Of a DNA stretch of 64,000 nucleotides, positions 28,695 through 64,000 are shown in pieces. Position 1 is the first letter of the stretch. The number at the start of each line of letters is the position of its first letter. Below the pieces are notes generated by a model. The model did not search any database. It was given only the letters and a program-made list of their open reading frames with translations, and was not told where the DNA came from. Source of the DNA: Lactiplantibacillus pingfangensis (GTDB lineage: Bacteria; Bacillota; Bacilli; Lactobacillales; Lactobacillaceae); contig NZ_BJDG01000008.1 in assembly GCF_005404945.1 (NCBI RefSeq), positions 1 through 64,000 on the forward strand. Reading direction: 5' to 3'. A program made the position numbers and the translations under genes.

Positions 28695-28749
28695 GAAAAC
28701 GGTCGTATCAGTCACCTCAATGAGGGTGCTGATACGACCGTTTTTTTTG
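28695..28749 (+). terminator. Strong terminator after rpoD
   Basis: AAACGGTCGTATCAG and CTGATACGACCGTTT form a perfect 15-bp stem, with an inner CACC/GGGTG pairing, followed by a long T-run. Confidence 0.93.
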
Positions 28750-28798
28750 TTTGTCGGCGGCGTATATGGGCTGGTTATTAAGGAAGCGTAGAATGAGG

Positions 28799-29410
28799 TT
28801 ACAAGCTCAAAGCAACGAGGTCAACTAAGAGGTGACAACTCCAAGACCCCCAGAGACTTTTTCCAGTCGCTAAATAAATACCGTTAAAAATTAGGCGAGC
28901 CATGCCTTGAAGAACAATCACGTGGACGAAGGTTGAAACAAGGTCACCATCCCAGTAAACAACTGCGTGCATCAGGCCAAAAATGAGGGCACTGATTAGC
29001 GTGCTAAATAGCAGTGAACGCCCCTGATTGCGAGCGACTTCGAGAATACCAATCCCTAATAATTCTTCACCCATTAACATCAAGGGTAACTTGAAAATCA
29101 GGATGGTCAAGTGACCACTTTCCGGATTTGCTGACCAGTTAAATCCCAGTTGTTTGGCTAATAGTCCGACCGCCAGGCTTAAGAGCAAATAGCCGATTGC
29201 GCCTAGTGGAATGGTCCAAAGACGATGTGGTCGTCGGAATGCTGACCAAGTCGTTCGTTGAAACACCACGAGCCAAGCCAGACCGCCGCCAATCAGTAGC
29301 GCCCACCAGGCCCAACTAAATGCGGTTAATAACCAGAAACCGCCAATTAAACCGAGACTGCCTAGCACTAATCTTTGAAAATTGATTGGAATGATTTCAA
29401 GACTGTTCAT
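28799..29410 (-). CDS. CPBP family membrane protein (Abi/CAAX protease-like)
   Basis: A 203-residue integral membrane protein with about six hydrophobic segments. The three CPBP motifs are visible: Glu115-Glu116 in MGEELLGIG, FGLMHAVVYW near residue 140 and CHLLVDL near 192. The usual motif 1 is EExxxR; here the Arg position is Ile120, so activity as a CAAX-type protease is uncertain. Family members in lactobacilli are often linked to bacteriocin self-immunity, but no bacteriocin gene is visible. AAGGAGGAAA precedes the start. It is divergent from the Rgg-type regulator, which may control it. Confidence 0.8.
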   Translation of the reverse strand: MNSLEIIPINFQRLVLGSLGLIGGFWLLTAFSWAWWALLIGGGLAWLVVFQRTTWSAFRRPHRLWTIPLGAIGYLLLSLAVGLLAKQLGFNWSANPESGHLTILIFKLPLMLMGEELLGIGILEVARNQGRSLLFSTLISALIFGLMHAVVYWDGDLVSTFVHVIVLQGMARLIFNGIYLATGKSLWGSWSCHLLVDLVALSL

Positions 29411-29487
29411 ATTAAATTTCCTCCTTCGATGGTTGGCGCTGCATGTGCAAGCGTAACAATTGTTTGTGACGAAAAAGTAAGCTATAT

Positions 29488-29515
29488 TTGATGGAAATAC
29501 TATAACTTCTACAAT
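29488..29515 (+). promoter_or_regulatory. Promoter of the Rgg-type regulator gene
   Basis: TTGATG (29488-29493), a 16-bp spacer, TACAAT (29510-29515). AAGTAG/CTACTT (about 29530-29552) forms a small hairpin just downstream. The 163-bp divergent region with the CPBP gene is AT-rich. Confidence 0.65.
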
Positions 29516-29573
29516 ATGATTTTTATAAGAAAGTAGCCTATTTGCGACTACTTAATTTTAAGGAGTGAGACGC

Positions 29574-30467
29574 ATGTCAAGTTTTGGTGAAACCATGCGA
29601 CAGATTCGCCTCAAAAAAGGCTTAACGCAAAAAAGACTCTATCAAGAAATTCTATCGAAGTCTTATGCCATTCGTTTTGAGCAAGGCAATCATGAAATTT
29701 CTTTTTTCTTGCTTCAACAAATCTTGGCACGATTTCCGATGGATCTGGCAGAGTTTTTGTATATTCATCGTGGTTATCGGCCCGATGAGACTGAATGGTT
29801 TTATGCGGGGTTCTTACACTGGGGTAATCGAACAGATTTGCAGGCATTACGTCAGTTTAAACAGGAGTATTTGGTGCGTTACCCACATAGCGAGCAACAA
29901 GCGATTCGGGTATTACAACTTGAGTTACGCTTGTCTCAGTTGGCTTATTATCAAGCCAGTGGCAAGGTGCTTGGCGATACTGTGCCGGAGACAATCAAAC
30001 GTCCCGTGACCGAATTGTTAGCGGCAATCCAATCATGGACGATTGAAGATATTCGCTTTGCGAGCAACACAATGGATCTGATTACTTCGGAAGATTTAAC
30101 GTTGTATTTTCGAACGATCATGGCTAGCCTACAACGTTATCGTGAGTTCACCCCCGGCAAAAGTATTATTTGTGTCTTCCTCATTAACGCCATTCATCAA
30201 GTTATTTTCGCAGATGAACTGGCTTTGGCAACCCAACTGTTGGCGAGCCTTGCCGAATTTTCACAAGATGAAACACAGATGTTTTACCGCAATTATGCCG
30301 AATTCTATGCAGGCATTGTTCAATTGTTACAAGGAAATTTAGCCGCACAGGCTCGCTCCGATCAGGCAATCACATGTTTTCGTCAACTGAATTATCAGCA
30401 TCACGCGCAACTGGCAACTGCAACCTTAAACTCGGCTCGACAGCTTTATGAAAGCCGCAGATCATAA
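29574..30467 (+). CDS. Rgg/GadR/MutR-type transcriptional regulator
   Basis: A 297-residue cytoplasmic regulator. An N-terminal HTH_XRE domain (about 4-60: FGETMRQIRLKKGLTQKRLY) is followed by a roughly 230-residue all-helical C-terminal region, the Rgg architecture, which in streptococci binds peptide pheromones. No obvious short hydrophobic peptide ORF sits beside it. I chose the ATG at 29574 because AAGGAGTGAG sits at the right spacing. It is divergent from the CPBP gene, its likely target by position only. Confidence 0.8.
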   Translation: MSSFGETMRQIRLKKGLTQKRLYQEILSKSYAIRFEQGNHEISFFLLQQILARFPMDLAEFLYIHRGYRPDETEWFYAGFLHWGNRTDLQALRQFKQEYLVRYPHSEQQAIRVLQLELRLSQLAYYQASGKVLGDTVPETIKRPVTELLAAIQSWTIEDIRFASNTMDLITSEDLTLYFRTIMASLQRYREFTPGKSIICVFLINAIHQVIFADELALATQLLASLAEFSQDETQMFYRNYAEFYAGIVQLLQGNLAAQARSDQAITCFRQLNYQHHAQLATATLNSARQLYESRRS

Positions 30468-30469
30468 AA

Positions 30470-30504
30470 CCCCCAAGGTTGGCATTTCTGTCCAATCTTG
30501 GGGG
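30470..30504. terminator. Terminator-like hairpin, convergent genes
   Basis: CCCCCAAGGTTGG and CCAATCTTGGGGG form a 13-bp stem with one wobble. The T-tract is poor on both sides, so efficiency is unclear. It sits between the Rgg gene and the minus-strand XRE gene. Confidence 0.6.
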
Positions 30505-30567
30505 CTACTTCGACTTTAGTGATATAACCATTTATGGTTTTTAGCTCGTGATGGCTAGCGGGCAGCG

Positions 30568-44040: not shown

Positions 44041-44062
44041 AATTCACTTAAACCTGAATTTG

Positions 44063-44092
44063 AAAAGTCGTCGCTTAGCGGCGGCTTTTTTA
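44063..44092 (+). terminator. Intrinsic terminator after pyk
   Basis: AGTCGTCGC and GCGGCGGCT pair with two wobbles around TTA, followed by a T-run. It separates pyk from the structured element downstream. Confidence 0.88.
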
Positions 44093-44185
44093 ATACATAG
44101 CTAAAGCTTGAAAGATGGCAATCACTAATAAGTGCCATCGTGTCAATAACTAGTTTATACGAATTAATTAGCAGTTGTTGCTTCC
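44093..44185. other. Spacer between pyk terminator and structured element A
   Basis: It contains a small hairpin, GATGGCA/TGCCATC at 44114-44139, and AT-rich DNA. The first recognisable similarity to the second locus starts near 44165 (ATTAG followed by a GCTTCC segment). No convincing promoter for the element is visible. Confidence 0.4.
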
Positions 44186-44356
44186 GGCTAGGACTGATAA
44201 CATGCGGTCGTGGGACCGGTCCAAGCCAAGGACGTCTTGGACCTCGCCCGAAACATTTGCAAAAATCGCAAGTGTCCCGGACAGTCCGTGGTGTAACGTC
44301 GGCCAAAACCAGCCGATGCAACGCCACCATCACGACCGATGTTATCAGTCCCAGCC
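44186..44356. repeat. Structured element A, module 1 (branched palindrome)
   Basis: Terminal arms 44186-44212 and 44331-44356 pair over 26 bp with one mismatch and one bulge. Inside are three more stems: GGTCCAAG/CTTGGACC, CATTTGC/GCAAGTG, and a 16-bp imperfect stem GTGGTGTAACGTCGGC/GCCGATGCAACGCCAC. The sequence is GC-rich compared with its flanks. A second copy lies at 60305-60478. Stems differ between copies but stay paired. Short frames cross it but none has a start with a ribosome binding site. Confidence 0.85.
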
Positions 44357-44656
44357 TGCAGCTCACTAGTTTTAGTGAAGACAGTCGAAATCACAGACCG
44401 TAGTTTGCAGGGCGATAGCACGATGATTCTGACTGGCGGAACACTTCATCACGAATTTGATTTAGGAGCGACGGTTGTTAATATGATCCTGTTCACAACT
44501 CTTTTTGTCACTTTTAACTTTTAGGAGTTAAGCATTCTTTTTCAGTCTGGTAATGACAACTGTATTAGTCCGTCCAGATCCGCGGCTGTCTCAACAATTG
44601 ATAGGTGATCCAGTTGTCACGAAGGGGTGACTAATAATCTAAAGAGTGCTCATCTG
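44357..44656. repeat. Structured element A, linker
   Basis: About 300 bp between the two modules. Similarity to the linker at 60479-60781 is weak but traceable (for example the shared ATAGCAC followed by co-linear short blocks), and the length is nearly the same. Two interleaved pairings, TGACAACTG/CAGTTGTCA (44554-44562 with 44611-44619) and ATTAGTC/GACTAAT (44564-44570 with 44629-44635), would make a pseudoknot here. Confidence 0.6.
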
Positions 44657-44810
44657 TAGCCGTGAGGGACTTCGTTTGGGGCTCAGCCGTGGCATTTGAC
44701 TTAGCGCGGTGATTTGTCCGCGGTTAGTCAAAAACCAGCTTTTGAGACCGCCTTTTGGCTCAAAAATGGTTCATGGCGTTCCAGCCCCAAACGAAGCCCC
44801 CGGTAGGCGG
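44657..44810. repeat. Structured element A, module 2 (three-way junction palindrome)
   Basis: The outer stem CTTCGTTTGGGGCT/AGCCCCAAACGAAG (44670-44683 with 44783-44796) is a perfect 14 bp, then GCCGTG/CATGGC (44686-44691 with 44772-44777). These enclose two hairpins: TTTGACTTAGCGCGG with CCGCGGTTAGTCAAA (44695-44732), and AACCAGCTTTTGAG with CTCAAAAATGGTT. It ends with GGTAGGCGG. The copy at 60782-60935 is over 90% identical by eye. A third, diverged copy begins at the right window edge. Confidence 0.87.
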
Positions 44811-44898
44811 GAATTGGAATCCGTTCACATACAATTTATGACCATTCCTCGCTATCTGGGGCGTTTTCGGTTACAATTAAACACACGTGAGGTGTCGT

Positions 44899-49630: not shown

Positions 49631-49657
49631 AAAGATGTTAAAAAATAATATTTGGTT

Positions 49658-49775
49658 CATCTTCAGGGCAGGGTGTAATTCCCGACCGGCGGTTATAGCC
49701 CGCGACCTATGTGTAAGCATAGTGATTTGGTGTAATTCCAAAGTCGACAGTTAAAGTCTGGTATAAAGAAGATCG
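49658..49775 (+). promoter_or_regulatory. FMN riboswitch (RFN element)
   Basis: The conserved RFN blocks are present in order: CTTCAGGGCAGGGTGTAATT, CCCGACCGGCGGTTATAGCC, the variable hairpin CTATGTG/AGCATAG region, TGGTGTAATTCCAAAGTCGACAG in parts, and the closing GAAGAT. FMN binding is expected to favour the terminator at 49805 and shut off ribU. Confidence 0.96.
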
Positions 49776-49804
49776 AGCTTATTTGGCATAAATCCGCAAA
49801 TAAA

Positions 49805-60105: not shown

Positions 60106-60138
60106 TATACTAATTTTATCTAAGTGTTAACTTAAATT

Positions 60139-60170
60139 AGGATTGCTAGTGTGACTAGTAGTCCTTTTTA
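60139..60170 (+). terminator. Intrinsic terminator after the HAD-IIB gene
   Basis: AGGATTGCTAGT and ACTAGTAGTCCT pair over 12 positions with two wobbles, followed by five T. Confidence 0.85.
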
Positions 60171-60304
60171 TTTGGGGTAAGAAAGGGTCGTTTAAACGCG
60201 TTAAACTGTAAATTTATCACAGTTGTTGCACTAACGAAGGTTGTAAGATCAAAATCGAAAATCGTTAGTAACTACCGCTATGTCCAATGATTAGGGCCGC
60301 TTCC

Positions 60305-60478
60305 AGTCGCCACTGATCACATGCGGCCGTGGGACCGGGGCAAGCCTGAGGAACGTCTTGACCCTCGCCCGGAACCCTTGCCAAAATCGCAAGTGTCCCG
60401 GACCGTCCGTGGCGTAACGCCGGCGAGAAACATGCCGACCCAACGCCACGGTCACGACCGATGGGATCAGCGGCGACT
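60305..60478. repeat. Structured element B, module 1 (branched palindrome)
   Basis: Second copy of module 1 (compare 44186-44356). Outer arms AGTCGCC-A-CTGATC (60305-60318) and GATCAG-C-GGCGACT (60465-60478) pair over 13 bp. These outer-arm bases differ almost completely from copy A, yet both pair. Inner sequence from ATGCGG to CGACCGATG is co-linear with copy A, with stems GGGGCAAG/CTTGACCC and GTGGCGTAACGCCGGC/GCCGACCCAACGCCAC partly maintained. Confidence 0.83.
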
Positions 60479-60781
60479 TCCAGCTAATTTAACTGTTTTT
60501 AGGCTAGGTTTAGCGGAGGCCGGTAGAATCACTGTCCCACCATAGCACAGCGATGTCCGTCTGCCGGAGCGGGATCGCGACTAATTGGGAAGTAGCGGTT
60601 GCCTATGTGACCGTGTTTACGAGCCCTTTTGTCCTTTCAACCTTCAAGCACTAATCTGTCAGTCCAACCACCACAGATGAAATGGTCTGTTGTGTCGACT
60701 ACTTTTAACTGTCGATTGTTTGCCGGTGGGTATCTGTCTAAGAAATTTAGGTGGCTGATCTTTCGAAACAATGCACGTTCT
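60479..60781. repeat. Structured element B, linker
   Basis: About 303 bp, nearly the same length as the linker in copy A but much diverged. A local stem ATCTGT/ACAGAT occurs near 60655-60680. No open frame with a start site is supported. Confidence 0.55.
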
Positions 60782-60936
60782 TAGCCGTGAGGGGGCTTCG
60801 TTTGGGGCTCAGCCGTGGCGTTTGACTTAGCGCGGGTTTTGTCCGCGGTTAGTCAAAAACCAGCTTTTGAGACCGCCCTTTGGCTCAAAACTGGTTCATG
60901 GCGTTCCAGCCCCAAACGCCCCCCCCGGTAGGCGGA
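60782..60936. repeat. Structured element B, module 2 (three-way junction palindrome)
   Basis: Near-identical to 44657-44810. The outer stem CGTTTGGGGCT/AGCCCCAAACG (60799-60809 with 60908-60918) is 11 bp. Hairpin a (TTTGACTTAGCGCGG/CCGCGGTTAGTCAAA) is the same as in copy A. Hairpin b is a better stem here (AACCAG/CTGGTT plus CTTTTGAG/CTCAAAA). It ends in a run of C followed by GGTAGGCGG. Confidence 0.87.
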
Positions 60937-61029
60937 AGTCGACCCACTCGATAATAAATTTAGAAAAAAACGAGGAAAACTTTACGATGAAAGGTTGACG
61001 ATTAACCAATGCGTGGTTATCTGTTAAAC

Positions 61030-61035
61030 TATAAT
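61030..61035 (+). promoter_or_regulatory. -10 element for dapB
   Basis: A perfect TATAAT at 61030-61035 after TTAAAC; no strong -35 is found at 17 bp. TTGACG at 60995-61000 is too far (29 bp). Confidence 0.45.
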
Positions 61036-61099
61036 AGTGATAAATTAACTGGACGCAGTTTTTTTGACTGAGACAGTTAAATTTGAGGAGGAAATTAAT

Positions 61100-61885
61100 T
61101 TGGTTAAAGTAATAGTTGCCGGCTATCATGGTCGGATGGGTAGCACGGCTGCTCAAATGGTGATTGATAATGCTGATTTTGACTTGGTCGGGGTTTTTGA
61201 TGCCCGCGGTAAGGATCGCAACTTGGGTGAAGATGATCGTTTTAAAGGTCAAGATGTGCCTGCTTTCCATAATTTAGACGCCATCAAAACAGATGCAACG
61301 GTTTGGATTGATTTTACGATTCCAACGGCGGTTTATGAAAATGCTAAATTTGCGATCAATCATGGGATTTCACCAGTGATTGGGACGACCGGGATGACCG
61401 ATGAACAAGTCGCAGAGTTACAAAAGCTCGCTAAGGACAAACAAGTTGGTGGTCTAATCGCACCTAACTTTGGGATTAGTGCCGTCTTACTCATGCAATT
61501 TGCACAGCAAGCCGCTAAGTATTTCCCAGATGTTGAAATCATTGAAATGCACCATGATGACAAGATCGACTCACCTAGTGGGACGGCAATCAGCACGGCT
61601 AAGAAGATTGCTGAAGTGCGCAAGCCGAAAGAACAAGGCAACCCCGATGCTACCGAAACCATCCCAGGCGCCCGTGGTGCAGAATATGAAGGGATGCGGA
61701 TTCATGCCGTGCGCTTGCCTGGTTTAGTTGCCCATGAAGAAGTGATGTTCGGTGGTCCCGGTGAAGGCTTGACGATTCGCCAAGATTCTTATGACCGGAT
61801 TTCATTCATGACTGGTGTGAAGGTCGCGGTTGAAAAAATTAATCAGTATCATGAACTCTTCATTGGCTTGGAGAATTTACTATGA
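61100..61885 (+). CDS. dapB: 4-hydroxy-tetrahydrodipicolinate reductase
   Basis: NAD(P)H-dependent reductase of the lysine/diaminopimelate pathway, supplying cell-wall DAP. The 261 residues begin [19 protein letters not shown], the dinucleotide loop. The active site [18 protein letters not shown] lies near residue 150 and the C-terminal substrate domain follows. The start is TTG at 61100 with GAGGAGG at 61085-61091; a TTG 36 bases earlier is not supported. No lysine riboswitch is visible. It overlaps cca by four bases (ATGA). Confidence 0.95.
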
Positions 61886-63666: not shown

Positions 63667-63915
63667 GTTGCAAAAAAATAATGTTGCACGGTTGTGAGTT
63701 GTGTTTTTAGTGAATTCTAGCTAAGATAGAACGTAATGATGCATTTTTGTATTAGTGTATAAACTGTTCTAATGCCGCCTGCCGGTCGGAAGTTAAAATG
63801 TGGTCCTCCAAGCGAGAATTTAACTAGGGAGGTAAACCCACCGATTGAGATAAAAGGTGTCTCTGAGCTATTTTTTTCAGATGACATTGACTGCCAGCGC
63901 AAATCTAGCCGAGAG
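63667..63915. other. Non-coding stretch before the right-edge element
   Basis: No supported gene. Two interleaved pairings, AGTTAAA/TTTAACT (63791-63797 with 63819-63825) and CCTCC/GGAGG (63805-63809 with 63828-63832), could form an H-type pseudoknot. CCGCCTGCCGG near 63777 faintly resembles the inverted end of module 2. Confidence 0.35.
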
Positions 63916-64000
63916 GTTGGGGGCTAAAATGCTCAGCCATGAAATTGGTCTTAGTGCGGGTGGGTTTTCCCGGACTTAGACCAAGGCTGGCTTTGAAGAC
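63916..64000. repeat. Third, diverged copy of module 2, cut by the window edge
   Basis: Co-linear with module 2 of copies A and B: TAGCCGAGAGG, GGGGCT, GCTCAGCCATG, then a hairpin TTGGTCTTAGTGCGGG/CCCGGACTTAGACCAA (63945-63984) and the start of the second hairpin (GGCTGGCTTTGAAGAC). The hairpin stem has different bases from copies A and B at two paired positions, both compensated. The rest lies outside the window. Confidence 0.72.

Follow-up and report, generated by a model that had tools for sequence, protein, structure and literature searches.

Inverted pairs of covarying, multi-branched arms in probable MITE-like elements of Lactiplantibacillus

Bcr1, RUP and NEMIS, as characterised in the passages of PMC3733652 that concern them, are gene-free repeats with terminal inverted repeats (TIRs) and target duplications, which are intergenic, foldable and present in high copy number. 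The elements reported here share these features. They differ from that account of Bcr1, RUP and NEMIS in several respects. Each typically holds two separate multi-branched arms of 150-190 nt, placed head to head. The arms show covariation, keep loop letters across genera and have a better-folding strand that points outward. In addition, four of the eight copies shared between two sister species are inverted in place.

A second point of comparison is provided by the REP, BIME and REPIN repeats with RAYT (PMC3116915, PMC8266576, PMC3733652). In the portions of these papers that describe them, they are inverted pairs of structured repeats, intergenic, non-autonomous and of high copy number, as are the elements studied here. 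According to the summary in PMC3733652, REPs are palindromes of 20-40 bp, whereas our arms measure 150-190 nt and contain three- or four-way junctions. One clade, unlike REPs and REPINs, has TIRs together with an 8-bp target-site duplication (TSD), and a linked Y1 gene was not found. Within the same bacterial order, the Efa-1 repeat of Enterococcus faecalis is given as 163 nt long with 65 copies in PMC2267715, and EFAR repeats are cited for this species in PMC3733652. Both resemble our arms in being about 165 nt long, intergenic and numerous. The EFAR repeats of enterococci are possibly the nearest match.

GOLLD and ROOL are large structured elements in Lactobacillales. Our elements are unlike them in matching nothing in Rfam at the thresholds applied, in their far higher copy number and in their inverted, modular arms. 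Structured non-coding parts of mobile elements include IS110-type bridge RNAs, attC sites and group II introns. Here, by contrast, a TIR and an 8-bp TSD are present, the presence of reverse transcriptase genes does not follow that of the elements, and no Rfam intron model is matched. The papers listed by our literature searches included no description of covarying multi-branched arm pairs that occur in several genera and flip in place. MITEs and REPINs are already known kinds of element, and those described here are unusually elaborate.

The window analysed is a stretch of 64,000 nucleotides from Lactiplantibacillus pingfangensis (contig NZ_BJDG01000008.1, positions 1 to 64,000). It contains paired branched palindromes in each of two intergenic gaps, 44041-44898 and 60106-61102, and a third element at its end. 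The features are as follows.

44070..44085, plus strand: terminator-like site (intrinsic, TTTTTT tail) of the upstream gene, just outside element 1
44100..44832, no strand assigned: element 1, with bounds from synteny blocks
44175..44368, minus strand: left arm of element 1, type A; the sense strand is the minus strand, reading outward
44369..44651, no strand assigned: linker of element 1
44656..44814, plus strand: right arm of element 1, type B, a three-way junction reading outward, toward the DUF441 gene
60106..60989, no strand assigned: region of element 2, from synteny blocks; the left edge is at 60178 against G009
60139..60165, plus strand: terminator-like site (intrinsic) upstream of element 2
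60293..60487, minus strand: type A arm on the left of element 2; the sense strand is the minus strand (E 8.1e-8 with the covariance model R1, described below)
60781..60939, plus strand: type B arm on the right of element 2, preceding dapB
63905..64000, plus strand: right arm of a third element, cut off by the end of the window and continuing to 64066 on the contig

The edges of element 1 fall at 44099 and 44840 in synteny with the relative G013, and at 44103 and 44833 with G009. Direct inspection and folding agree with the first-pass annotation in finding the same architecture in the same orientation in both gaps. The terminators it placed ahead of both elements are likewise found, as the terminator-like sites at 44070-44085 and 60139-60165. 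The hairpin of the former is also legible in the orthologous gaps of relatives. Counted over whole gaps, terminator-like sites number 6 against 1.5 in shuffles in the first, and 2 against 1.4 in the second, which is no excess. The predicted fold of the left module of element 1 has an energy of -101 kcal/mol (z -11.3), that of the right module -83 kcal/mol (z -5.4), and neither value was equalled by any of 200 shuffles. The linker is conserved in part, and other copies contain an additional arm-like four-way module at this place. Read by eye, the linker of element 1 seems to be a deletion remnant of this module, termed C, which is whole in other copies. The third element, overlooked in the first reading, starts at 63905 at the latest and has a weak partner arm on the minus strand (63780-63854, E 0.031). 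It is older than elements 1 and 2; G009 and G013 have arms at the place matching the third element, unlike at elements 1 and 2.

The first reading had noted two copies. Searches of the whole genome (2.9 Mb, 59 contigs), three in number and each scoring at most 40 candidates, yielded at least 54 near-full left (A) arms and at least 40 near-full right (B) arms, in 68 stretches around matches together with the window. The arms of this genome are intergenic.

Within an element, the A and B modules are distantly homologous and lie head to head. This is indicated by R1, a covariance model for which 41 B arms were taken from our genome and from relatives, and which matches A on the reverse strand. 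For 44175-44355, the score is 29.6 bits on the minus strand (E 7.7e-9) and 3.5 bits on the plus strand. Palindromes yield antisense echoes of R1, for example 11.5 bits for B itself, so the A matches of 30-50 bits are partly echo, and we rely on the orientation specificity of the match. The view of A and B as unrelated modules of gene 3' and 5' ends was dropped because R1 matched A on the reverse strand. The earlier description of two branched modules is correct, with the addition that the two are remote homologues of opposite orientation.

Of the 27 A-arm loci of this genome that were examined, 20 gave an opposite-strand R1 match to the A arm, and the other seven gave no match to it. Behind several seemingly solo A arms lies the extra four-way module C, which is matched by R1 in nine of the 27 loci with its sense opposite to that of A. 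Judged by these strand matches, elements of the A..B, A..A, A..C and B..B kinds all consist of two inverted arms with their predicted sense strands pointing outward. Neither a second A arm nor a C match, and hence no inverted partner, was found in 14 of the 27 loci, so some arms are either single or have partners that diverged beyond the model. The same geometry is seen in other named genomes. Among arm pairs less than 900 nt apart in 70 of at least 80 loci, 42 of 48 are head to head, six are in tandem and none is tail to tail. The 42 include one overlap, probably an echo; the spacers of the other 41 measure 34-92 or 131-554 nt. Elements reach about 1.1 kb and typically comprise two arms of about 150-190 nt. 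The unit is one such arm, used in inverted pairs; a single structured RNA of 620 nt, as had been suggested, is not supported. A deletion derivative at G000 C1:75508-75590 (L090) has lost all of a B arm except its two outer parts.

Both window sites are empty in the close relatives G013 and G009. At site 1, 740 nt of the window stand against 48 nt in G013, and 729 against 52 nt in G009. The corresponding values at site 2 are 884 against 86 nt and 811 against 67 nt, and these two sites are the largest window-specific stretches in both comparisons. Site 1 lacks some 50 nt of the ancestral gap sequence. Across the genus, the pyk-DUF441 gap measures 136-200 nt in 13 of 21 genomes and 861 nt in our genome. 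Inserts with arms of the same superfamily occupy the same place in G005, G003, G014, G015 and G019, and the upstream gene is not in place in two of the 21 genomes. The dapB gap is 131-317 nt long in 16 of 21 genomes, 550-690 nt in three (one with an arm) and 1000 nt in our genome; the upstream gene is not in place in one. Elsewhere in the window, the stretch at about 1717-2446 is also longer than in G013 (730 vs 171 nt) and G009 (609 vs 27 nt), and the region around 28749-30567 also differs.

The ends of the elements can be read in G019. Two clean insertions in this genome are bounded by TIRs of about 20-47 bp, of the ACGYATTGTGCTAGTTAA type, with a perfect target duplication of 8 bp in each case, and the corresponding sites in its sister G015 are empty. 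R1 detects both arms in one of these insertions and a single arm in the other. In 400 kb of G019 and 265 kb of G015 together, 17 places with arms are enclosed by facing TIR pairs, two of the 17 being one orthologous element. The duplication is kept at 7-8 of 8 bases in four of the 17 TIR pairs, the two clean insertions included, compared with 1.8% of random pairs. A similar TIR was recognised by eye in G008 and G017, and at two further places G017 has arms where G008 has only 20-26 nt. The window's own elements have no clear TIR and no clear target duplication, and their subfamily has other conserved ends. A 0.2-kb TIR-to-TIR miniature in which no arm was detected is present in G003 (L344, C1 ~2701942). 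Separately, an insertion at C1 ~1737873-1738718 of G019, missing in G015, looks by eye like an IS with a transposase gene.

Elements have also changed orientation. G015 and G019 share eight elements in the 265 kb compared. Four of these have been turned round in place between unchanged flanks, and the remaining four, one of them a short remnant, keep their orientation. The pyk-DUF441 gap is an example: a stretch of 0.93 kb, 94% identical between G015 (L264) and G019 (L265), is inverted between flanks of the same orientation. The stretch in this gap is inverted likewise between G003 and G005, at 78-84% identity. In-place inversion in half of the shared copies makes orientation-dependent regulation directly testable. 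The first-pass annotation had listed a non-autonomous mobile element fossil among its candidates. A mobile element is supported by the empty sites, TIRs, target duplications and inversions, and as more than a fossil.

We interpret these loci as a superfamily of non-autonomous, MITE-like, invertible mobile elements with two outward-facing structured arms, and place the probability of this reading at roughly 0.7. No gene was found inside the elements. The TIRs and the target duplication imply a transposase acting in trans, which would move the element via its TIRs and produce the 8-bp duplication. Recombination between the TIRs, or template switching, could flip the element in place. Several observations speak against this reading: the preference of A and B arms for particular gene ends described below, the lone A arms, the small share of TIR pairs that keep a duplication (4 of 17), the window elements without a clear TIR or target duplication, the missing part of the ancestral gap at site 1, the negative search for a matching transposase, and the lack of a conserved promoter seen ahead of the sense arms.

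A candidate for the mobilising enzyme was sought at the TIRs. Facing TIRs are present at 23 of 30 TIR loci examined, and the sole ORF of at least 100 aa within facing TIRs (112 aa, L362) overlaps an arm. Two loci with a single TIR end each contain a GH85 gene (L342) and an amylase gene (L364), respectively. No transposase with matching TIRs was found at the 30 sites examined out of 121 TIR sites in four genomes, nor at three plasmid TIRs. On plasmid pL1277-1 (L292 7216-8150), an element TIR is followed by an annotated IS5-family transposase gene. By eye, this gene has different ends of its own, so it looks nested.

The arms are strongly structured. RNAalifold folds 41 arms into 48 pairs, with changes on both sides in 28. 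Among 149 matches from named genomes, two-sided compensatory change occurs at 45 of the 48 pairs. Paired cells amount to 94.6%, compared with 67.2% in shuffled and at most 46.9% in slid alignments, and covariation scores 0.547, compared with 0.135; the alignment of the 149 matches was fitted to R1, so these values lean toward structure. In the outer stem, 15 of 18 pairs are present as all four Watson-Crick pairs. Conserved or near-conserved letters of the loops and junctions are CTCAG, CTTAG/TTAG, GAGACCG..GGCT and CGTTCCAG. The covariation of the wider alignment, which had been put forward as a check, thus supports the structured nucleic acid originally proposed. The Rfam search suggested alongside it gave no relevant match at gathering or relaxed thresholds, with GOLLD, ROOL, T-box and group II intron models included. 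An FMN riboswitch was recognised elsewhere in the window, at 49655-49777 (RF00050, 103.5 bits).

Folding is asymmetric between the strands. With RNA energies, the sense strand is the stabler one in 53 of 54 A arms, 39 of 40 B arms and 122 of 140 arms of relatives; with DNA energies the values are 53 of 54, 39 of 40 and 136 of 141; and non-Watson-Crick cells comprise 316 G-U against 130 A-C, or 210 against 130 without one constitutive G-U pair, all of these counts being non-independent to the extent that copies in the same genome are related. As most copies have their better fold on the outward strand, the computed energies suggest that a single strand, RNA or ssDNA alike, seems to be the selected form rather than a duplex cruciform.

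If the selected strand is RNA, the arms may act as folded RNA in transcripts that exit the element. A sense arm would be the last part copied by RNA polymerase, whichever way it traverses the element. The arms might in this way shield adjacent genes from read-through and from the element itself, a tentative proposal that we rank first among the possible roles of the arms but hold at clearly below even odds. Insulation of the neighbours would make copies cheap to keep. Promoter-like sites within or before the arms show no excess in either gap, and no conserved -10/-35 was seen by eye ahead of the sense arms. The conserved right end of the B elements of this genome (e.g. L094), ...GAAAAACTTGACACTTAC, carries an outward -35-like TTGACA and lies near likely host promoters.

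The arms could instead be folded ssDNA that serves movement, in transposition or replication, comparable to the ends of IS200/IS605 or to REP/TnpA-REP. That the outward strand is also the better folder with DNA energies agrees with such a role, as do the inverted placement of the arms inside TIRs and the lack of promoters seen. We regard it as a serious contender, somewhat less probable than insulation. The genome contains a lone Y1 transposase gene (Y1_Tnp), which has no arm within the stretch examined around it, and a linked Y1/RAYT was rejected on this ground. Moreover, the TIRs and the 8-bp target duplication in two clean insertions point to a duplex transposase.

In our genome the arms are placed in a consistent manner relative to genes, whose ends were taken from a crude ORF caller. 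The outward neighbour is a gene 3' end for 48 of 55 A arms and a 5' end for 37 of 41 B arms (Fisher p 8e-15), one further arm of each kind having no neighbour and standing outside these counts. In tandem gaps, with the window arms excluded, A is found 20 times on the 3' side and three times on the other, whereas B occurs 20 times on the 5' side and never on the other. This rule is beyond what random insertion explains. Together with the loop nucleotides kept across genera, it favours chromosomal functional elements maintained for the benefit of the host, insulators or boundary RNAs in which A guards 3' ends and B guards promoters, with mobility being incidental. The comparison between genomes makes this quite improbable. 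Orthologous sites are mostly empty, two of 21 genus genomes (G001 and G002) have no R1 match at E 0.01, and sister species differ in both presence and orientation. Furthermore, named relatives provide 32 arm pairs for which both flanking genes could be reached, and the gap is tandem for 19 of these, convergent for 8 and divergent for 5.

Selection of the arms as double-stranded DNA, in the form of duplex cruciforms or protein-binding palindromes at supercoiling sites, would fit strong palindromes situated between transcription units. It is very improbable in view of the strong strand asymmetry of folding, the G-U excess and the conservation of unpaired loop letters, which also disfavour the cruciform-forming repeat considered in the first-pass annotation. 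RNA-mediated, SINE-like retro-elements would account for the RNA-like covariation and strand bias and for the orientation bias behind gene ends, and are scarcely credible given that TIRs and TSDs indicate DNA transposition, that the genome's own reverse transcriptase locus has no arm, and that RVT_1 genes do not track the elements (84 to at least 139 R1 matches without RVT_1 in G017, G014, G007 and G009; RVT_1 without an R1 match in G002), for which reason a reverse transcriptase link was rejected.

Within the mobile-element reading, a more far-reaching and rather doubtful proposal is that the elements constitute a new mobile class. Its members would carry two back-to-back copies of a conserved domain, structured as RNA or ssDNA, such that a folded arm is made last regardless of the direction of transcription or copying, and their in-place flipping would provide an invertible insulator or switch across Lactobacillaceae. 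If the arms act as RNA, they represent a strongly covarying RNA domain that has no family so far. If they act in transposition, they represent a new way of marking transposon ends.

R1 matches were found in 19 of 21 genus genomes at E 0.01. The matching genomes contain from 19 to at least 139 matches each, echoes possibly included, yet no Rfam model covers them. A pattern scan of named genomes gave at least 80 loci, and those listed are titled Lactiplantibacillus, Levilactobacillus or, once, 'Lactobacillus sp.'. A DNA search with a B arm matched 12 of 120 relatives. Of 295 genomes sampled across the order, R1 has matches in 14, our genome included. Three of the 14 belong to another family of the order and give weak matches that share the junction and loop letters. 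Such matches in a second family of the order are a further point of likeness to EFAR/Efa-1; no inverted second arm was seen beside the arms of these three. In a class-wide sample with strict filters (E 1e-4), none of 397 other genomes matched; set against the matches of the order sample, this means that the distribution beyond Lactobacillaceae rests on weak matches.

Phages gave no match to the window element or to the G005 element, and plasmids gave none to the window element. The G005-type element has partial matches on 25 plasmids, 18 from Lactiplantibacillus and 7 from Ligilactobacillus, spanning 30-35% of the query among the matches listed. R1 detects an arm in all four plasmid loci examined.
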